Both the position numbers and the translations under genes were made by a program. Under the pieces are notes generated by a model. It saw only the letters and a list, made by a program, of their open reading frames with translations, did not search any database and was not told where the DNA came from. A stretch of DNA of 64,000 nt from Proteiniborus ethanoligenes (lineage in GTDB: Bacteria; Bacillota; Clostridia; Tissierellales; Proteiniboraceae), in assembly GCF_900107485.1 (NCBI RefSeq), contig NZ_FNQE01000024.1, positions 1-64,000 on the forward strand. Reading direction: 5' to 3'. Positions 51,672 to 62,763 of the stretch are shown here, in pieces (position 1 is the first letter of the stretch; each line of letters begins with the position of its first letter).

Positions 51672-52058
51672 TAAGTAAGCCAGATGATCGCATGCGTTTG
51701 CATGAGGAAAGTCCGAGCTCCAAAGGGCAGGGTGCTGGGTAATACCCAGTGGGGGCAACCCCAAGGATAGTGCAACAGAGATATACCGCCAGAACTCTTT
51801 TTCGGTGTAACAACTGAGCATGTAGTGAAATAGTCCATAGAAGGGGCTATCTGGTAAGGGTGGAAAGGCGAGGTAAGAGCTCACCAGCAGCTAGGCGACT
51901 AGCTGGCTATGTAAACCCCATCTGGAGCAAGACCAAGTAGGGACTAGAAAAGGCGGCTGCCCGTCGCCATCCCAAAGGTAGGTCGCTGGAACCTATTGGC
52001 AACATTAGGTCTAGATAGATGATCGTCTAATACAGAACTCGGCTTATAGACTTACTTA
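51672..52058 (+). ncRNA. rnpB: RNase P RNA (bacterial)
   Basis: The catalytic RNA that trims the 5' leader of pre-tRNAs. Conserved blocks are GAGGAAAGTCCGAGCTCC near the 5' end, ATAGTGCAACAGAGA with CCGCC after it, AAGGGTGGAAAGGCG, and the ACAGAA-type 3' block at 52031. P1 pairs AAGTAAG at 51673-51679 with CTTACTT at 52051-52057. Conserved regions and length of about 387 nt point to class A, but the class was not modelled. Promoter and terminator are in place. Confidence 0.96.
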
Positions 52059-52070
52059 ATACAATTTATG

Positions 52071-52108: not shown

Positions 52109-52143
52109 TTACATAGATTCCTATCTAAGGGTATCATCTAATA

Positions 52144-52167
52144 CCACTATATCACTGTGAAAAGTGG
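52144..52167. repeat. Inverted repeat before the STAND/HEPN operon
   Basis: CCACT at 52144-52148 and AGTGG at 52163-52167 flank a 14-base gap, 82 bases before the start of the large ATPase gene. It could be an operator; it is short and may be chance. No good promoter was recognised between the rnpB terminator and the gene. Confidence 0.3.
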
Positions 52168-52248
52168 AAAAATTAAAGGAAAATTGTAGAATCATATAGA
52201 ATATAGAGGGATAAGGAAAGCAGCAGAATTAAAAAGGAGAGTGAATTT

Positions 52249-55200
52249 ATGTTCAATAAGGATGAAAAAAATAATTTTCCTGAAATTATTAGTAATTTTC
52301 AAAAAATAATTTTAGATGGAAAATTTAATGAAAGTATAAGCTACATTCAAAATCAAAAATACATAAAGAGAATATCTCTAGAATATTTTCCTTCATTCAC
52401 AAGAAATAGTGTTGGAAAGGAATTAGATAATAATCACTATGTAAAAATGGACAGTTCTGATAGATTGTTTTTTTATTTAATAATGCTTTTTTTTAGCCCT
52501 AGATATGCTAAGACCTGGAAGCATATTTTTAACCATTATAATTATGAAAAAATAAACGGATTAGATTTATTAGAACAAAAAAAATGTGGATATATGGTAT
52601 ATATATATTTCCTAGAATTAATTAAAAATCCAAAGGACTACGATTATAAAATATTAAAAGACTTTTGTAAAGTCAATAATTTCTGGATCGAAGCTCAAAG
52701 TGCTAATTTCAAAGAAATGAAGATAACAAAGGATAATGATAAAAAGAAAGAATTAATATATTTTTTTGCTGACAATATTGAAAAATTAAATAATGAACCC
52801 ATATATGGTGAGTTTGATAAAAAGACATTCATTAAATCTGTAACAGACTACATAGATGTAATTAAAAATAGTATATTAGATGAAGGTCTAATGCATAAGG
52901 TATCTGCAATTAAATATGGAAATGAAGGGGATTTAGATAATGCCTTTGAAAATATGAAAAGAGCATATGAAGCCGGAGTGTCCTCTAGGACCATTTTTGA
53001 ATGGGCCTCTGAAAATTCTTATCTCCCACAACTAAAGGAATATCTTAATACAAGATATAAAATTGACCCTAGCCTAAAGGATGTATACCAAATGATTAAT
53101 TTATGCGATCTTATGCTTAGCATTCAAGGAATAGAGATAGCTGAATTAAAAAAATATGTAATAAGATTTGTAAAAAGATATCCGAATCCGCCTGGAGATA
53201 AGGAGTTAGGAGAGTTTAACATTTGCCTTTCTAAATATAATAAACAAATATGGGGCTTAGAAATATATACAATATTGCATAAAACCTTTCCTGGAGATCG
53301 TTATATTAAAAAGACAAATGCTGATTTGTTGATAGAGATGGAGAATCAACTTGATGAAGCTGTTTTTCTTTATTATGATGCTTTTATTCAGTTTAAAAAT
53401 GAGAAAAAATTTAATTTAAAGCCTTTTAGAAAGGTGGCTATTACGTGCATATTAAAGGATAGAAATGATCTTACCCAAATGTTATTGACTTTATTAGATG
53501 GAGAAAACAATAAACTATGGATTCGTACAAAGAAAAACTTCAATACTTTAATTGTTCTAGGCAGAAAAATTAACGAAAAAAATAATAAATCTAAGGTTAA
53601 CCTGTTTAATGAGTTTTGCATTGCTGTAGACAAGGGATCATTAACAGGTATAATATATTCTATTTGTAGGTATGATAATGAATTTTTATTGAATTATGAT
53701 GAAGTTAAAGAAATACTTAGCAATTATAATCAGTATGAGCTGAAAAAAAGCCTGCTCAAATTTTTTGTAGAATATGATTTACACAGTGAGCTTAACATAG
53801 AATCTATATTAAGTTTAATAAAAACAACAAGTTTTAAAATGTATGAAATCCTAAAAGATATAAATGATAAATATCGCTCTGAAGTTTACTTATTAGAGCC
53901 CTATGTAGAGAAAATACTTACTAACAGGTTAACAGCTTGCTATGGCGAATTATTTCCTTTATTAGAAGCAGAAGAAAGGGCAAGGATTAAAGAAATAGTT
54001 ACCTTATTGATGGTTGAATTATTTGGCTTTAACCAATTATATAAATATAAATATCCAGAATTTATAGGTGTATTAAATATACCTGAAGAAAAGAAAAAAG
54101 AGAAGATACTTGAACTTACTAATACCTGTTTAAAATATTATAATGATAATCCTGATTATTTTATTGGATACGGCCAAATGTTAATGAAAATAAAGCAATG
54201 GCGTGAGGCATTATTGAATTTTAAAGAAGCTAATAACCCTAAATTTGTAGAAGTATTTGATAGATCAGATTCTGCACTTGTATCTGAAAATATTTGCAAA
54301 CTCTACATAATGGCAGAAGAAGGCAGAATTGATTATAATATAAAGGAATTAAGCTATGTATTAAAAGCTATTTCTATTGTCGTAAAAATGGATTCTAATC
54401 ATGTTACTCTTAATAAACTAGAAGAGCTATTTAGGGATAAAAATGACCCTCTAATACATGTTATATCTTCATTTAATTATGCTTTAGAAAATAAGAGTAT
54501 AGAAGCAGTTAGAGAAATTAACAAAGTGAAATTTTTTCTAGGAGAACTATATAACTCGTGCTTCAATATGATCAATAGCTTGTTAATAGGAGTAGAAAAT
54601 GAAATAACTGAGGATATAAACTCTCCTCAAGAAGAAATAGCATCTACTGAAGAATATTTGATTGATGATTATTTAACAACTTACAATGATGACTATGATT
54701 TAGATAAGTTTTTTGCTCTAACTCATGACTCAAGCATGTTTCTAAGTACAAAAGATTTTTTGAATTTTGTGCCATATTTAGCTCTAGAGATAGAAAACTT
54801 CAAATTATCAGTAGATATGTATGAGATTTTGAAGCTGGAAATAAAGGATAGGTATAATGTTAATATCTTAGATGAACTTGAGCTAAAGTCATTATCTAAT
54901 AAAAGCTTGCAAGTAATAAAAGCTGCAGTTGAAAAAGATAATATTAAGGATTTCTGTGAATTTGTACTAAAATATATTGAAATCAACAGTATAATCTTAG
55001 AAAAAAATAAATTGTATATACCGCTTTTGCATCTCTCTTTTGAGGCTTTATTAGTTACATATTATTCTTCAAAAATAGGGGTTGATTGGAAAATCTCCTT
55101 TGATACTGCAATAGATAATATACTTGTGGCCTATAAAAGCATTAATGATTCAAAAGAGTTATTCGAAAATCTTAAATTTACTAAATATATATGCACTTTT

Positions 55201-57057
55201 TTTAAGTTACAAGAAAATGGATACCTAAATAAAATAGCACCTTATAATTTAGATGCTTTTAAAAAGTTTGTACATATTTGGAGGTTAAAACTCTCCTATA
55301 ATAACATAATTAATACAGTAGATAAAAGAAGAGTAATAGAGGAAATAAAAAATGAAATTTTAACAATAAGAGAGTCCTTTACAGAAATAAAGAATAATAA
55401 ATATAGAAAAAAATATATTAGTATCTGTGATAATCTTGATTTAGCCTGTATAAAAGAAAGAGAAAGGCTTAGAAAAAGAGTAAACCTACAGTGCAAGCTT
55501 TTGAATAATATGGATAGCTTAGGGTTAGAGACAGTGCTCCATTTTCATGTAAAAAATACTGGTGAGGCTATAGCTAATGAGCTCAGTGCAAGCATAGAAC
55601 TGCGTAAAGGTATAGAACTTATAGAATCTAAGTATTTAAATCTTGGAGGTTTAAGAAAAAATAAGGGTACTAGCTTTAAATTTGATTATTGTTTCAGCGA
55701 GGCGGGAGACTATGTATCAATAATCACCTTAAAATATATTGAAGATGGAGAAGGGGACTATTATACCTGTGAAATTCCCATCAGGATAGAGGATAGGATT
55801 AACAAATTTCAAAGAACTCCTACTTATTTGTACCTAACTGCTCCAGCAGGTGCTGAAAGCACATATTTTTACGGTAGAGAAGAAGAAATAAATGATATAC
55901 ATGATAATTTTTTAGACTTAAAAAGAGGAGATCATTCCTTTTTTATTCATGGTCTACGTCGTGTAGGGAAATCTTCCCTGCTAAATTATGTTAAGACAAG
56001 CTTAAATGAAAGGTGTTATTCAGTATTATGTAACGCAGATAGTGGCATATTGCCTAAAACTACAGATGAGCTTATTTATAAGCTTTTTGTAAGTAAAATT
56101 ATTGATTCATTTAAATATGATTATGGCATTGATTTAGGAGAGGTATCCCTTGAGGAATTTTCTATGGGTAGTGGAGATTCAATGGAGAAGTTTGATGCTT
56201 TTTTAAGAAAAATCGAAGAAAACATTGGAGAAAAATCCTTGATAATCTTAATTGATGAATTTGAAGGGCTCCTAAGATCCTTTAACAATAGTGTTGAAAA
56301 TATTCTACCAGATCTTAGAAGGATTGCTCTTGATCGTTTAAGAAAAACATGTTTTATATTTGCCGGAGGAGAAGACATTGTAAACAGGACAGAAGTAACA
56401 GTAGCACGTATTGCCGACTCTAGCAGGAGAATAAGGTTAGGATTTTTAGATAAAGCTGCTGCTATAAACTTGATTAAAGAACCAGTAAATGAGTACCTAG
56501 TCTATACAGATGAAAGTATAGAGTCCATAATGCAATATACAAAAGGGCATCCATATTATATTGTACAAATTTGCTTAAAAATACTTGACAAACTAAATAA
56601 AGAGAAGAAAGAAAACACTGTATATCCATTAGATGTTGAATTTGCAGTTCAAGAAATTTTAAAAGGCTCAGATTTGTTTATTAATATAGAAGAGATAATA
56701 GTAGATCCTTGTGAAAGAGCTATTATAATCTTGTTAGGAAGATTTCTTAAACATGATAATGACAGTTTAGACATAAAAAAGCTTATAGAAATATTTAAAG
56801 TTATCGATACCGAATACAACTTAGAGGGTAGATTTTTTAAAGACTACATTAAGGGTTCCGCAGATAAATTAGTGGAAAAAAACATACTAGAAAAAGCAAC
56901 TGAAAAGGATGTAGCTTCCTATAAATTTACTCTTGAACTATGGCGACTATGGTATAAAAATGTAAGCGGAGCAAAATGGAAAGAGTGGTTAGAAGCAAAT
57001 GATATGCAAATACTTTGCGGCATTGACGAGATAGAAGAAATAAATAGAATAATATAA
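52249..57057 (+). CDS. Giant STAND-like P-loop ATPase with helical N-terminal region
   Basis: A 1602-residue protein with a good GGAG site 9 bases before ATG. Residues 1 to about 1075 are helical and TPR-like in places (for example around 215-265 and 625-680) without a recognised family. Residues about 1080-1185 look like a beta-sandwich (CARDB/Ig-like, with VKNTGEA). Then YGREEE (1208-1213), Walker A GLRRVGKS (1235-1242), Walker B LIILIDE (1331-1337), a GHPYYIVQICLKIL lid and a C-terminal winged-helix-like end. The order GRE-Walker A-Walker B-GHPY is that of STAND/archaeal-type predicted ATPases. It is 14 bases upstream of a second P-loop protein with a HEPN-like end. No known defence gene is matched; a role as sensor is inferred. 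Confidence 0.8.
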   Translation: MFNKDEKNNFPEIISNFQKIILDGKFNESISYIQNQKYIKRISLEYFPSFTRNSVGKELDNNHYVKMDSSDRLFFYLIMLFFSPRYAKTWKHIFNHYNYEKINGLDLLEQKKCGYMVYIYFLELIKNPKDYDYKILKDFCKVNNFWIEAQSANFKEMKITKDNDKKKELIYFFADNIEKLNNEPIYGEFDKKTFIKSVTDYIDVIKNSILDEGLMHKVSAIKYGNEGDLDNAFENMKRAYEAGVSSRTIFEWASENSYLPQLKEYLNTRYKIDPSLKDVYQMINLCDLMLSIQGIEIAELKKYVIRFVKRYPNPPGDKELGEFNICLSKYNKQIWGLEIYTILHKTFPGDRYIKKTNADLLIEMENQLDEAVFLYYDAFIQFKNEKKFNLKPFRKVAITCILKDRNDLTQMLLTLLDGENNKLWIRTKKNFNTLIVLGRKINEKNNKSKVNLFNEFCIAVDKGSLTGIIYSICRYDNEFLLNYDEVKEILSNYNQYELKKSLLKFFVEYDLHSELNIESILSLIKTTSFKMYEILKDINDKYRSEVYLLEPYVEKILTNRLTACYGELFPLLEAEERARIKEIVTLLMVELFGFNQLYKYKYPEFIGVLNIPEEKKKEKILELTNTCLKYYNDNPDYFIGYGQMLMKIKQWREALLNFKEANNPKFVEVFDRSDSALVSENICKLYIMAEEGRIDYNIKELSYVLKAISIVVKMDSNHVTLNKLEELFRDKNDPLIHVISSFNYALENKSIEAVREINKVKFFLGELYNSCFNMINSLLIGVENEITEDINSPQEEIASTEEYLIDDYLTTYNDDYDLDKFFALTHDSSMFLSTKDFLNFVPYLALEIENFKLSVDMYEILKLEIKDRYNVNILDELELKSLSNKSLQVIKAAVEKDNIKDFCEFVLKYIEINSIILEKNKLYIPLLHLSFEALLVTYYSSKIGVDWKISFDTAIDNILVAYKSINDSKELFENLKFTKYICTFFKLQENGYLNKIAPYNLDAFKKFVHIWRLKLSYNNIINTVDKRRVIEEIKNEILTIRESFTEIKNNKYRKKYISICDNLDLACIKERERLRKRVNLQCKLLNNMDSLGLETVLHFHVKNTGEAIANELSASIELRKGIELIESKYLNLGGLRKNKGTSFKFDYCFSEAGDYVSIITLKYIEDGEGDYYTCEIPIRIEDRINKFQRTPTYLYLTAPAGAESTYFYGREEEINDIHDNFLDLKRGDHSFFIHGLRRVGKSSLLNYVKTSLNERCYSVLCNADSGILPKTTDELIYKLFVSKIIDSFKYDYGIDLGEVSLEEFSMGSGDSMEKFDAFLRKIEENIGEKSLIILIDEFEGLLRSFNNSVENILPDLRRIALDRLRKTCFIFAGGEDIVNRTEVTVARIADSSRRIRLGFLDKAAAINLIKEPVNEYLVYTDESIESIMQYTKGHPYYIVQICLKILDKLNKEKKENTVYPLDVEFAVQEILKGSDLFINIEEIIVDPCERAIIILLGRFLKHDNDSLDIKKLIEIFKVIDTEYNLEGRFFKDYIKGSADKLVEKNILEKATEKDVASYKFTLELWRLWYKNVSGAKWKEWLEANDMQILCGIDEIEEINRII

Positions 57058-57070
57058 AGGGGGATTTTAT

Positions 57071-59008
57071 ATGCTGAATAGCATATTAGCCAATAAATGT
57101 CCAGTTATTAATAGTGAAGACTATATTGGTGATGAGAATTTAGTTTTGGACATTTATGATATTATCAATGCAAAAAGAAATAACTTTGCAATAATAAATG
57201 ATGACGGTGTGGGGAAGTCCTCACTGCTAAATTATATTAATTTTCCAGACACTAAAGAAAAGTATCTAGCTGAATTTAACAAAAAGACAACATTAATAGT
57301 CAAAACAGATAAAACAGATCCCAAAAGTGCTTTAGAATTTCTTGAAACACTGAGGAGATGTTTAAAATATGAAATTAAATATAACCAATATATCATAAAG
57401 GATATTAAAAGGGAATGTGATGAAATATTTCGTGAATACAAGGACTATTCAGAAGAGAACAAAATAAGAGACTGCTTATATGATATTTTTAGGTTTTTAT
57501 ATATAAAAAAAATAGGCACAATCTTTTTAATAGATGATTTTGACAAGATGATTAAAAACATTAAAGAGTATCAAAAAATGGAGATGGCACAAGAAAATTA
57601 TTCTTTTCTTAGGGATGTGGCCAATGATACATCTTCATTTAATGTTCACTTTATAGTTACAAGTAGAGTAGAGATTCAAAAAATTTCTTATACAGTAGAT
57701 GTTTCAGGACTACCTGGTATATTTACTCCTAAACAGATAGAGTTGTTTGGAGATAGGGAGATAAATATATATATTGATAAAGCTTTCGAGAAAAGTGGGA
57801 TTGTGGTATTAGAAGATGAAAGAGAAATGTTGAAAAAAGTAAGTGGAGGTTTTCCTGGTCTCCTTAGAATTGCTTGTGAGGCTTTATACCAAGCAAAAAA
57901 AGAAGGCAAAACAATAAGTGAAGAACAGATGATTAATGATGTAATAGATGAATCGGATTTGTTAGAAACTCATTGGGGCTGCTCTACTTTAGAAGAAAAA
58001 AAGCTATATAAAAACATAGGGTTATCAGAAGACATATATGTCCTTTCTAAGCATGAGGAAGCTGAAGCCTTAAGAGCTTCAATAAAGAGAAAAATATTAA
58101 AAGAAGATAAAATATTTGTATCCAAAGCTTTTCAATTTTATGTTAACAAAAAATCTATAATAGAAGATGAAGTTAATGTTACTAATGATACCAATACTGA
58201 TACTGATTATAAAGAATTATTAGAGAAACACAAGAAGGTAACAGATGCAGCAATAAGAGTAATAGAAAGACAAGAAGAGTTAAACTTAATGATGTTCAAA
58301 AAGCTAGAATCACATATTAATTCAGATTCAACCATACATTCATATCAAGACAGGGCATTATCAAAAGAAGAAAAAGAAGAATATAACGAGTATGTTGTAA
58401 AAATGGCAGGAGATTATTTCCAAGATATATCTCTAAATATTGATCATATAGATACACTAAAGAACATGTCAATAAAAAACATATGGAATAAGCTGGATAA
58501 TTTTAATTTGACGAAAATAGTTCAAGGAGAAAAATTAAATAGTATTTATTCAAAGACAAAGTTTGATCAATCTCCTGTAGGGATTTCATACACTGATGTC
58601 TTCGAGAATATTATAAAAACCAAGGCATTTCCCTCTATGAAAAAATACATAAGCAACAAATATCCAGAGTTAAAAATAAGGCCAAATGAAAGAGCAAATG
58701 AATTGTTATTAAAATTTCATCCAGACCCTATGGTTGGAAACTTTAAACATATTTTAATGAACTATGAAAAAATAATTAAGGAATATTATAGTACTGAAGT
58801 GGCTGGAGATAAAATATTAAGGATTTACAATGAAGACTTTAAAACAAAGCTTCACAACATACATATTCTACGAAATAGAATATCACATGAAAAAAGAACG
58901 GAAGCAGATAAGGTAACTGTTAATGATATAAGGAGATTGAGAGAAAACATGTTTGGTGGAGAAGTTAGCTGTATAGAATATTTGATAAGACTTTCAGAAA
59001 TAAAGTAG
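57071..59008 (+). CDS. P-loop ATPase with C-terminal HEPN-like domain
   Basis: A 645-residue protein. The P-loop is NDDGVGKSS (residues 43-51; the usual first Gly is Asn43), with Walker B FLIDDFDKM (about 152-160) and a SGLPGIFTPKQ/GGFPGLLRIA lid. A winged-helix-like segment (about 310-360), a coiled coil (about 377-415) and a C-terminal helical domain of about 200 residues follow. Its end contains RNRISH (Arg601, His606), the RxxxxH motif of HEPN RNases, in the setting LRNRISHEKR typical of Swt1/DUF4145-type HEPN domains. It is co-transcribed with the giant ATPase. An RNase effector is inferred from the motif, not shown. Confidence 0.8.
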   Translation: MLNSILANKCPVINSEDYIGDENLVLDIYDIINAKRNNFAIINDDGVGKSSLLNYINFPDTKEKYLAEFNKKTTLIVKTDKTDPKSALEFLETLRRCLKYEIKYNQYIIKDIKRECDEIFREYKDYSEENKIRDCLYDIFRFLYIKKIGTIFLIDDFDKMIKNIKEYQKMEMAQENYSFLRDVANDTSSFNVHFIVTSRVEIQKISYTVDVSGLPGIFTPKQIELFGDREINIYIDKAFEKSGIVVLEDEREMLKKVSGGFPGLLRIACEALYQAKKEGKTISEEQMINDVIDESDLLETHWGCSTLEEKKLYKNIGLSEDIYVLSKHEEAEALRASIKRKILKEDKIFVSKAFQFYVNKKSIIEDEVNVTNDTNTDTDYKELLEKHKKVTDAAIRVIERQEELNLMMFKKLESHINSDSTIHSYQDRALSKEEKEEYNEYVVKMAGDYFQDISLNIDHIDTLKNMSIKNIWNKLDNFNLTKIVQGEKLNSIYSKTKFDQSPVGISYTDVFENIIKTKAFPSMKKYISNKYPELKIRPNERANELLLKFHPDPMVGNFKHILMNYEKIIKEYYSTEVAGDKILRIYNEDFKTKLHNIHILRNRISHEKRTEADKVTVNDIRRLRENMFGGEVSCIEYLIRLSEIK

Positions 59009-59030
59009 GGGATAATCTCTCCTGCTTTTT
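59003..59030 (+). terminator. Terminator after the ATPase/HEPN operon
   Basis: A stem of AGTAGGGGA with TCTCCTGCT (G-T pairs and one mismatch) is followed by TTTTTAA and overlaps the stop codon. Confidence 0.65.
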
Positions 59031-59118
59031 AAATGATATGAAATACTTCTATGTATACAAGACATTTTTTGATATAATGTACTAATGAAATAATTTAAGG
59101 CATTTTGGAGGATATCAA

Positions 59119-60471
59119 ATGAGAATTATAGAAAGAGATAAAGCATTTTATAAATCAATGTTTGCAATAGCATTACCAATAACTCTACAGAACCTAATTA
59201 CATCTTCATTGAACATGATAGATACATTGATGATTACTAGTCTAGGAGAAGGTAGTATCGCAGCTGTTGGATTAGCTAATCAGTTTTTTTTCTTTTATGC
59301 ATTAATAGCATTTGGAATTAATAGTGGTTCTTCAATTTTCATAGCACAATTTTGGGGAAAAAAAGATACAGATAATATAAAAAAAGTATTAGGATTGGCA
59401 ATAATCCTGTGCGGTGGAGTGGGGGTAATATTTACTGCAGTAGCATTATTTAAACCAGAATATATCATGATGTTTTTTACAAAAGAAGCAGATGTAGTAA
59501 GATTAGGGAGCGACTATTTAAGGATAGTATCTTTAAGCTATATTATTACAGGTATAAGCTTTGCTTTTAGTGTTGCTCTTAGAAGCATTGAACAAGCCAA
59601 AACACCTATGGTAGTTAGTGGTATATCCTTTGTAACTAATACAGTGTTCAATTATCTGCTTATTTTTGGAAAATTTGGTTTTCCAGAGCTTGGGATTAAA
59701 GGTGCGGCTTATGGAACTCTCATTGCAAGGATAGTTGAGATTATTTTTATTTTATACGCAATATATTCTGACAAAGGTCCTTTAGCAGGAAGCCTTAAAG
59801 AATTAACCAATTGGAATAAAGAATTTGTTTTTAAATATTTTAAAACTACTTATCCTGTAATAGTAAATGAAACTTTCTGGTCCTTAGGAAATGTTATGTA
59901 TTCAGTAGCTTATGCTAAAATAGGAAAAGAAGCTACAGCAGCTGTTCAAATAGCTAATACTATACAAAATATTTTTTTAGTTATTTCTAGAGGCTTAGCA
60001 AATGCATGCACAGTTATGGTAGGAAATAAAATAGGAGCAAATGAAGAGAAAGAAGCTTACTCATACGCCGTTAAGTATCTCTTTATTGCTACAACCTCTG
60101 GATTATTTTTAGGAGTTATTCTATATTTAACCTCGGGATTCACACTAAAAGCCTTTAATGGTTTAACAGATGAACTGTTCCATACTTCAAAAAAGATGCT
60201 TGCTGTTATGGCTATTTACCTAATTGCGAAGATGTTTAATGGAACTTTGATTGTGGGAGTACTTAGGGGTGGTGGAGATACAACCTTTTCTATGCTGCTA
60301 GAAATGGGTTCTGTATGGCTGGTAGGAGTTCCACTAGCATTTTTAGGAGCATTAGTATTTAAATTACCAGTATATTATGTTATGGCTATTGTTTCCTTGG
60401 AAGAGGTAGTAAAGGCCACTATAGGATTGCCCAGAGTGATATCTAAAAAATGGATTAGAAATGTAACATGA
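59119..60471 (+). CDS. MATE-family efflux transporter
   Basis: A 450-residue membrane protein with about twelve spans and the two-fold MATE pattern (ITLQNLITSSLNMIDTLMI at the start; GVLRGGGDTTFSML in the second half). Family members export cationic drugs or metabolites using a sodium or proton gradient; the substrate is unknown. It has its own ribosome site (GGAGG) and terminator and stands alone after the ATPase/HEPN operon. Confidence 0.93.
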   Translation: MRIIERDKAFYKSMFAIALPITLQNLITSSLNMIDTLMITSLGEGSIAAVGLANQFFFFYALIAFGINSGSSIFIAQFWGKKDTDNIKKVLGLAIILCGGVGVIFTAVALFKPEYIMMFFTKEADVVRLGSDYLRIVSLSYIITGISFAFSVALRSIEQAKTPMVVSGISFVTNTVFNYLLIFGKFGFPELGIKGAAYGTLIARIVEIIFILYAIYSDKGPLAGSLKELTNWNKEFVFKYFKTTYPVIVNETFWSLGNVMYSVAYAKIGKEATAAVQIANTIQNIFLVISRGLANACTVMVGNKIGANEEKEAYSYAVKYLFIATTSGLFLGVILYLTSGFTLKAFNGLTDELFHTSKKMLAVMAIYLIAKMFNGTLIVGVLRGGGDTTFSMLLEMGSVWLVGVPLAFLGALVFKLPVYYVMAIVSLEEVVKATIGLPRVISKKWIRNVT

Positions 60472-60480
60472 TAATAATAC

Positions 60481-60515
60481 AAGCTCTTGTTTATTAAAAG
60501 CAAGAGCTTATTCCT
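60481..60515 (+). terminator. Terminator after the MATE gene
   Basis: AAGCTCTTG and CAAGAGCTT form a perfect 9-bp stem; the following T-run is short (ATTCCTT). Confidence 0.7.
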
Positions 60516-60621
60516 TATAAAGCAATATATTTGTAACATTATATTGCTAATGGAATAGCTTTATAATATAATGATGTTAATTGAGTGTAGCTTTGATTTT
60601 TTTGGAGGGATGTGGGGAGTA

Positions 60622-61908: not shown

Positions 61909-62763
61909 ATGGCTGAAATTTTAAAGGGTGCTCCTGTAGCAAAAGCTATAAAGGAAAAAATCATAGCTGAGGCAGAGACTCTAAAGCAGAGAAATATTAT
62001 TCCCACATTAGGTATAATAAGAATGGGTAATAGGGCAGATGATATTTCTTATGAGAAGGGTGTTATTAAAAACTGCGAGTCTGTAGGTATACAGGCACGT
62101 GTATTTGAAGTAAGTGCAGATACTCCTATGGATGAATTCGTGCAGCTTATTAAAAAAGCAAACGAAGATCATACGGTGCATGGGATATTAATGTTTAGAC
62201 CCTTACCAGATCATATTGATTATGAGATAATAAAGGAGTTAATAGATCCTAAAAAAGATGTTGATTGTATGCATCCACTTAATCTAGAAAAGGTGTTTGA
62301 AGGCGATATAGACGGATTTGTACCATGTACTCCAAAGGCAGTAATAGAGGTATTAAAGCATTATAATGTTCCTTTAGTAGGAGCAAATGTAGCAATAATA
62401 AATAGAAGTATGGTAGTCGGGAGACCTCTTAGTATGATGTTTTTAGGTGAAAGCTCTACAGTTACAATATGCCACTCTAAAACTAAAGATTTACCTAAAT
62501 TGACAGCTAAAAATGATATAGTAGTAGCTGCTGTTGGAAAAGCAAGAATGCTTGGTAAAGATTATTTTAGTGAAAACAGTATAGTCATTGATGTAGGGAT
62601 TAATGATGCTGGGGAAGGAAAGATATGTGGTGATGTAGATTATGATAATGTAGTTGAAAATGTAAAAGCCATTACTCCTGTTCCAGGAGGAGTAGGTAGT
62701 GTTACATCAGCTATTTTACTAAGACACGTAATTATGGCGTGCAAAAATATTACAGATAAATAA
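61909..62763 (+). CDS. folD: FolD-like methylene-THF dehydrogenase/cyclohydrolase, variant
   Basis: A 284-residue FolD-family protein with the usual architecture: FRPLPDHID, KDVDCMHPLN, GFVPCTPKA, the NAD(P) motif NRSMVVGRPLSMMFL, ATVTICHSKT-like sequence and ITPVPGGVGSVTSAIL. In the standard YxxxK catalytic motif the Lys is replaced: Tyr48 is present, but position 52 is Val, with Lys at 50 and 54 instead. It belongs to a clostridial FolD subgroup with DDISYEKG in this place. Cyclohydrolase activity is therefore uncertain. Monocistronic, with a terminator. Confidence 0.88.
   Translation: MAEILKGAPVAKAIKEKIIAEAETLKQRNIIPTLGIIRMGNRADDISYEKGVIKNCESVGIQARVFEVSADTPMDEFVQLIKKANEDHTVHGILMFRPLPDHIDYEIIKELIDPKKDVDCMHPLNLEKVFEGDIDGFVPCTPKAVIEVLKHYNVPLVGANVAIINRSMVVGRPLSMMFLGESSTVTICHSKTKDLPKLTAKNDIVVAAVGKARMLGKDYFSENSIVIDVGINDAGEGKICGDVDYDNVVENVKAITPVPGGVGSVTSAILLRHVIMACKNITDK

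Follow-up and report, generated by a model that had tools for sequence, protein, structure and literature searches.

A conserved two-gene, two-ATPase unit with a predicted N-terminal solenoid ahead of a probable STAND-type ATPase

Two adjacent genes, P0001 and P0002, form a real and conserved two-gene unit of about 6.8 kb for which we found no existing name. P0001 encodes a giant protein in which a predicted TPR-like solenoid precedes a probable STAND-type ATPase, and P0002 encodes a second, likely STAND ATPase followed by a helical domain with an invariant Rx4H motif. The two almost certainly work as a functional pair. STAND-type signalling with a reversed domain order and a split effector is the new element of this design. 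The most likely reading of the pair, which we hold tentatively, is a two-gene, two-ATPase intracellular immune switch resembling abortive infection. Among the literature matches listed, nothing describes the pair by title or by the start of the abstract. The features are collected in Table 1.

Table 1. Window coordinates of the pair, its domains and the insertion that carries it
Feature	Position	Strand	Basis or remark
Insertion between rnpB and the NlpC/P60-folD block	~52110..60540	.	ends judged by eye from alignment; carries P0001, P0002 and the MATE gene
Giant protein P0001, whole ORF	52249..57057	+	1,602 aa; homologues found
TPR-like alpha-solenoid, P0001 1-1075	52249..55473	+	predicted model m4497c9ef690b, fold searches, helix count
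CARDB/Ig-like beta-sandwich, P0001 1080-1182, between solenoid and ATPase	55486..55794	+	predicted model, VIA
STAND-type ATPase (ATPase_2/AAA_16/nSTAND1), P0001 1207-1440	55867..56568	+	Pfam, alignment
C-terminal region, putative winged helix, P0001 1471-1602	56659..57054	+	inferred; Cdc6_C
Partner P0002, 645 aa, 13 bp 3' of P0001	57071..59008	+	ORF, homologues
STAND-like ATPase, P0002 1-360	57071..58150	+	Walker A D45-S51, Walker B D155-D156, GxP around P262
Helical domain, P0002 436-645	58376..59005	+	alignment, predicted model

Results

Genomic setting

The window, that is, the whole 64,000-nucleotide stretch of DNA that was analysed, is low in GC and carries ordinary bacterial genes, including, by reading, those for a sigma factor, a methyltransferase and a Nif3-like protein, as well as one for a zinc-ribbon protein. 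A Pfam scan of five window genes flanking the pair found nothing unusual. The P0001 ORF is intact, with an ATG start and AAAAAGGAGAG 5' of the start; the RNase P RNA class A gene rnpB (51672-52062) lies immediately 5' of it. Promoter-like sites were not clearly above shuffled sequence (62 against 50.4, s.d. 7.5).

The pair lies on an insertion of about 8.4 kb that is missing in both congeners (G001 and G002). There, an NlpC/P60 gene and folD, identified by Pfam on the G001 copies, stand directly 3' of rnpB; in the window the NlpC/P60 gene is reached only at 60571 and folD only at 61909, and the insertion in between therefore contains P0001, P0002 and a MATE gene. By eye, the rnpB terminator is retained at the left edge and the NlpC leader resumes at the right, with the insertion point just past the terminator. 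No direct repeat of at least 16 nt brackets the insertion, and none of its three long ORFs encodes an integrase. The MATE transporter gene (59119-60471) is absent from the scanned neighbours of the pair in relatives.

The N-terminal region of P0001

The sequence-only reading set apart the interval 52249-55485, residues 1-1079 of P0001, as a long helix-rich region with a few TPR-like stretches and no known domain. Structure prediction bears out its helicity: 75% of these residues are helical, in 56 helices of at least six residues spanning 4-1075. The AlphaFold2 model of residues 1-1196 was built from seven sequences (mean pLDDT 77, pTM 0.41). Its final helix stops at residue 1075 and strands start at 1080, so that the boundary drawn from sequence falls almost exactly on a domain boundary. 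Residues 1-779 are TPR-like, the linker 780-817 is mostly of low confidence, and 818-1075 form a second helical segment; the two-helix spacing has a median of 35 across residues 1-780, TPR repeats being helix pairs of 34 residues that also bear a sequence signature. Very probably, residues 1-1075 form a solenoid.

Curated sequence families do not recognise this region. The Pfam scan of whole P0001 gave no match within 1-1079 at E<=1, and that of the 1-1196 fragment at E<=0.5 gave a sole match at 1131-1155, outside the region. NCBIfam and PADLOC have no match to P0001, and PHROG yields one weak match (residues 609-644, E 0.12). By sequence, no solved structure matches residues 1-1079, and the best hit of a profile of seven relatives against solved structures is SegB (E 0.012). 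P0001 itself has no TPR match by sequence, and single relatives give weak signals (ANAPC3, E 0.0021; TPR_2, E 0.016). Comparing the profile with itself brings out no internal repeat of significance (best E 0.2).

The best PDB matches of the solenoid by Foldseek are chains of Integrator, SKI, IFT-A, PAF/CTR9, NatA, APC/C and OGT (best E 2.5e-6). Because their TMq is 0.08-0.17 and their rmsd large, what they share with the solenoid is local repeat packing and not overall shape. VIA aligns the OGT TPR domain over 315 residues (Z 11.5, rmsd 15.2); this match of helical repeats may reflect only a common arrangement. No enzyme fold for residues 1-1075 appears among the VIA matches listed, a list filled by sandwich matches, and the viral structure library has no match at E<=0.001. 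An enzyme within the N-terminus, which would have told against the earlier description, was rejected, with no support seen, and the structural likeness is to TPR by fold and not to any sequence family. The absence of a known domain holds for sequence families only: the fold is recognisable, as a TPR-like solenoid and a CARDB/Ig-like sandwich, and the family is not. The TPR-like stretches, weak by sequence, are TPR-like in the predicted fold.

By blastp, the first 1,080 residues on their own match two relatives at 2e-35 and 7e-40, and their conservation is therefore beyond chance. Identity within the Lutispora group is 47-60% for the first solenoid segment and 68-78% for the ATPase, and in 10/10 pairs the ATPase is better conserved than the solenoid. 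This favours the earlier suggestion that the N-terminus is a sensor, but residues 1471-1602 diverge about as much (19-23% against 18-23% for the solenoid, in pairs with P0001); on the whole a sensory solenoid is somewhat favoured. The variable ligand surface that was to be looked for among homologues does not emerge. Variation is diffuse, with the lowest identity (0.31) at the linker and without a hypervariable patch, and a hypervariable surface on the solenoid would be an over-reading.

Sandwich, ATPase and C-terminal region

The sandwich between solenoid and ATPase matches known structures by VIA at Z 9.6-12.2 over 90-109 aligned residues (rmsd 2.3-3.9), the CARDB structure 3idu among them (Z 10.2). 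The C-terminal position of the ATPase, noted from sequence, is confirmed by an ATPase_2 match to P0001 at 1207-1440 (E 2.2e-14), behind the solenoid; nSTAND1 matches at E 0.0016. The ATPase_2 match comes from the 1197-1602 region, the scan of whole P0001 having given AAA_16 instead. In all seven homologues this region matches both ATPase_2 and nSTAND1 at E<=0.1 (Pfam). Walker A (G1240-K1241-S1242), Walker B (D1336-E1337), H1434 and Y1436 (GHPYY in P0001) are invariant in 7/7 aligned sequences, and the G before H1434 is R in two. Motifs and profiles make a STAND-type ATPase highly likely. The ATPase alone is too generic to define the system, as a control, a generic Clostridia AAA protein (G316 locus), also matches the giant's ATPase profile at E 1.8e-14. 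A Cdc6_C winged-helix match in 2/7 members (best E 0.0072) suggests that residues 1471-1602 may form a winged helix.

The partner protein

The conserved partner gene, of which the sequence-only reading made no use, is the more informative half of the unit. Homologues of P0002 are 31-34% identical. Their ATPase matches AAA_22 and nSTAND1 in 5/5 at E<=0.5 (best 6.6e-10 and 3.5e-8), and P0002 itself is weaker (0.0048 and 0.13). The P0002 model, with pLDDT below 50 in residues 1-37 and 43-69, matches by VIA the archaeal ATPase 2qen best (Z 17.3, rmsd 6.8, 313 residues aligned) and then 2fna (Z 15.1). Membership in STAND is likely but falls short of proof, because ORC/Cdc6 and TnsC score close behind: they rank alongside NLRs and CED-4 at Z 12-14.4, and ORC2 tops the Foldseek list.

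The helical domain at the C-terminus of P0002 contains invariant T496, D499-Q500-S501-P502, E512 and R601-x4-H606 (58871-58888). R601 and H606 are invariant in the 5/5 sequences covering both; the residue after R is N in 3/5 and R or K in 2/5. The predicted model places R601 close to where helix 588-605 ends and H606 in the following loop. HEPN domains, according to the available text of PMC3710099, carry an Rx4-6H motif where a helix ends and the next loop begins, and the R is usually followed by N, D or H. P0002 agrees with that source's description both in motif pattern and in helix-end placement. With two R and a single H invariant across about 210 residues, we put the chance of such spacing at about 3%, a figure reasoned and not computed. 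The invariance of these residues suggests catalysis.

Pfam and PDB profile searches give no HEPN match for the C-terminal domain, and the best 50 fold matches for m470e7fa0911c include no HEPN entry and are filled by ATPase matches. Residues 569-624 (58775-58942), the Rx4H region, match DUF6548 weakly and below the cut-off (E 0.0023), which might link DUF6548 to HEPN. Since no database search names the domain HEPN, we go no further than to call a HEPN RNase probable, on motif and helix geometry. PADLOC finds mad8 in 4/5 members of the partner family (best 8.1e-5) and five other weak families in one member each. A MADS system is expected to hold several MADS proteins in one locus.

Relatives and distribution

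A tblastn search with the alignment of relatives recovered six loci among 84,980 species, a scan that needs short exact motifs and is thus not exhaustive; with the window, the pair is seen in seven species. The six loci belong to Lutispora thermophila DSM 19022, one Lutispora MAG and four Clostridiales/Clostridiaceae MAGs. Four of them align from query residue 1 to about 1570 (best E 3e-88), and the other two are short contigs; in L035, one of these, the giant appears as two ORFs with an ambiguous base between them. The partner ORF stands directly 3' of the giant in 7/7 loci: it is intact in four (the window, L030, L032 and L034), cut by the contig end in two (L033 and L035) and interrupted in one (L031). 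In the intact relatives L030, L032 and L034, the partner ORF begins before the giant ORF ends, with overlaps of 4, 4 and 11 nt. In L. thermophila a Mu-like phage segment with protease and gpT head genes splits the partner ORF (L031:12856-19704).

In the Lutispora family, 5/22 genomes carry the pair, all in 1/7 genera, and 5/6 genomes of that genus (Lutispora) have it; being nearly genus-wide, the pair is not obviously mobile there. In the genus of the window it occurs in 1/3 genomes. Searches with P0001 returned only its own genome among 120 genomes of relatives, its own and one weak match (residues 401-545, E 2.3e-4) among 249 genomes of the order, and its own and five weak matches among 398 genomes of the phylum, four of them to the ATPase and one to residues 51-122, the last in an 89-aa frame with stops. 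With P0002, 248 genomes of the order gave its own and two weak matches (E ~0.005). Among 291 genomes of the class, the query 1083-1602 retrieved its own protein, five true relatives (E 2e-51 to 1e-62) and four weak matches (G316, G685, G738, G861); the N-terminal profile gave six true matches including its own and two weak short ones (G855, 2.7e-5; G907, 5.8e-5). The HEPN-like profile found its own genome only among 299 of the phylum. For P0001, little came from viral contigs, plasmids, phages or a single-sequence search of genome contigs. Scans of viral contigs and phages contained no relative of the pair; plasmids contained only ATPase-level relatives, and none matching P0002.

Ten neighbouring proteins around the relatives include no evident defence gene by Pfam, the Mu-like phage genes aside. 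At L030:7744-10042, two adjacent genes for WCX-domain (WYL-type) regulators, one above and one below the Pfam cut-off, converge on the pair, and L032 has ORFs of similar size at the same place.

Inverted order and sister designs

In most STAND proteins an arm and then a repeat sensor come after the NOD, as stated in the available text of PMC6468293, in agreement with the sequence-only remark that STAND sensors are usually C-terminal. The order in P0001 is inverted relative to these, because its solenoid precedes the ATPase. The inversion that had been proposed is thus real and unusual, but it is not unique.

A Clostridia giant from G685 (L052:1-3711, minus strand), first found through a weak match to query residues 1156-1252, reads for 1,237 aa before the end of the contig cuts it inside the ATPase. 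By reading, TPR-like helices come first, then a sandwich-like stretch and then Walker A, as in P0001; it differs in an N-terminus without a match to the solenoid profile and in a partner gene that falls off the contig. Against the solenoid profile only the sandwich region aligns, and not significantly (hhalign E 0.0036, probability 9). On a Cupriavidus plasmid (L050:2315-11970), a 2,285-aa protein puts about 1,560 residues ahead of a related ATPase and extends past it; an overlapping 933-aa ORF follows. Three genomes of the phylum (L003, L004, L006) have open frames of 1,897-2,067 aa, parts of which were read, with a related ATPase inside and long N-terminal regions.

An A. ursingii plasmid (L049:2041-9803) carries an hsdR-like gene, a gene for a 1,323-aa N6-methylase/specificity protein and, overlapping the latter, a gene that encodes a second STAND-like ATPase. 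At its C-terminus the methylase protein has a related ATPase (residues 907-1319; hhalign E 3.6e-21 to the giant's ATPase profile, against 1.8e-14 for the generic AAA control). The operon is like the pair in its C-terminal related ATPase and overlapping second ATPase gene; it differs in that a methylase and specificity domain replace the solenoid and in having the hsdR-like gene. The second ATPase matches the giant's profile at 1.2e-7 and the partner's at 2.1e-6; being no closer to P0002 in particular, it was rejected as an orthologue of P0002, and its C-terminus does not align to the HEPN-like domain. The operon looks like restriction-modification-type defence with two ATPases; its design parallels that of the pair without proving common descent.

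Discussion

In usual STAND proteins, contacts of the sensor help to keep the ATPase closed, and binding of an inducer leads to opening and assembly (available text of PMC6468293 and PMC7159879). For the pair, we infer the following course from its anatomy and pairing. The TPR-like solenoid of P0001 would be an arm that binds a ligand or the partner, joined through the sandwich as a hinge to the STAND-type ATPase, closed at rest; by analogy with usual STAND proteins, the solenoid would gate the ATPase across the sandwich. A cue, perhaps a phage protein, would bind the solenoid, whereupon the ATPase would exchange nucleotide and assemble. Activated P0001 might then recruit P0002 through the partner's own STAND-like ATPase, so that the HEPN-like domains cluster, RNA is cut and growth stops.

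This immune switch is suggested by the patchy presence of the pair, the Rx4H geometry, the precedent of HEPN-STAND-TPR fusions and the parallel of the A. ursingii operon. The ordinary neighbours in the window, the missing PADLOC match to P0001, the nearly genus-wide presence in Lutispora and the empty viral and phage searches point the other way, and the balance tips slightly towards a role in defence. The Lutispora distribution (5/6), the ten scanned neighbours without an evident defence gene by Pfam, Mu-like phage genes aside, and the MATE transporter sharing the insertion would all suit a STAND-like regulator in the style of MalT, serving stress, development or surface sensing with a HEPN-like domain that binds and does not cut. 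We think such a regulator unlikely: the pair is rare outside Lutispora and absent from both congeners, and an Rx4H invariant in 5/5 suggests catalysis.

In another reading, P0002 would be an ATPase-HEPN RNase toxic by itself and P0001 its chaperone-like brake, with the solenoid wrapped around the partner and the toxin released on loss or capture of P0001. Tight pairing, ORF overlap and a solenoid fold suited to binding a protein speak for this arrangement, and the interruption of the partner but not of the giant in L. thermophila is what one would expect if the partner were the costly half. The Walker A and B residues kept in 7/7 relatives of P0001 exceed the needs of a passive brake, however, and the arrangement seems improbable. 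The solenoid might instead be an assembly scaffold or effector platform, with the cue sensed by P0002 or a third factor. Its divergence, diffuse and greatest at the linker, with no hypervariable patch, and the similar divergence of residues 1471-1602 fit this idea, but lower conservation than the ATPase in 10/10 pairs is what sensors often display, and we judge a pure scaffold quite improbable.

Within the reading as an immune switch, the pair may conceivably be an NLR-like receptor split into two STAND ATPases, a giant with an N-terminal sensor solenoid and a partner with a C-terminal HEPN RNase, which fires when the ATPases meet; we regard this form as rather doubtful. If it were true, the methylase-ATPase operon and giants of the L052 type would count as sister designs that carry a different front module, and the design would suggest a class of constant C-terminal ATPase modules with exchangeable front modules. 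STAND immune receptors could then be reversed and split over two ATPases, with sensor and effector evolving as separate proteins. The pair is compact and testable, with clear nucleotide-switch residues and candidate catalytic residues.

Avs (AVAST) proteins hold effector, ATPase and TPR within one protein. They resemble the pair as large intracellular STAND ATPases, and in Foldseek the fold of the partner weakly matches EfAvs5 (E 9.5e-4, TMq 0.23). The pair is split over two proteins, unlike the single-protein Avs, and neither P0001 nor the partner family has an Avs match in PADLOC. MalT and PH0952, as described in the available text of PMC6468293, couple, like P0001, a STAND-type ATPase to a TPR-like solenoid; their solenoid follows the ATPase, whereas that of P0001 precedes it over about 1,075 residues, and the putative effector of P0001, unlike theirs, is a separate ATPase protein, P0002. 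The LypABC CARD-NLR system (available text of PMC13236601) is an immune unit that is multi-gene like the pair, with a C-terminal ATPase domain in LypA and an Orc1-like ATPase with TPR-like repeats in LypB. It differs in that LypA is a peptidase without Walker residues and that the LypB repeats follow the ATPase; HEPN is not mentioned in the searched text of that source, whereas the pair has a HEPN-like domain. HEPN-STAND-TPR fusions are on record in the available text of PMC3710099, and they unite the same HEPN, STAND ATPase and TPR functions that are proposed for the pair. The fusions are single polypeptides, often with HEPN at the N-terminus, whereas the pair would distribute these functions over two proteins with two ATPases.
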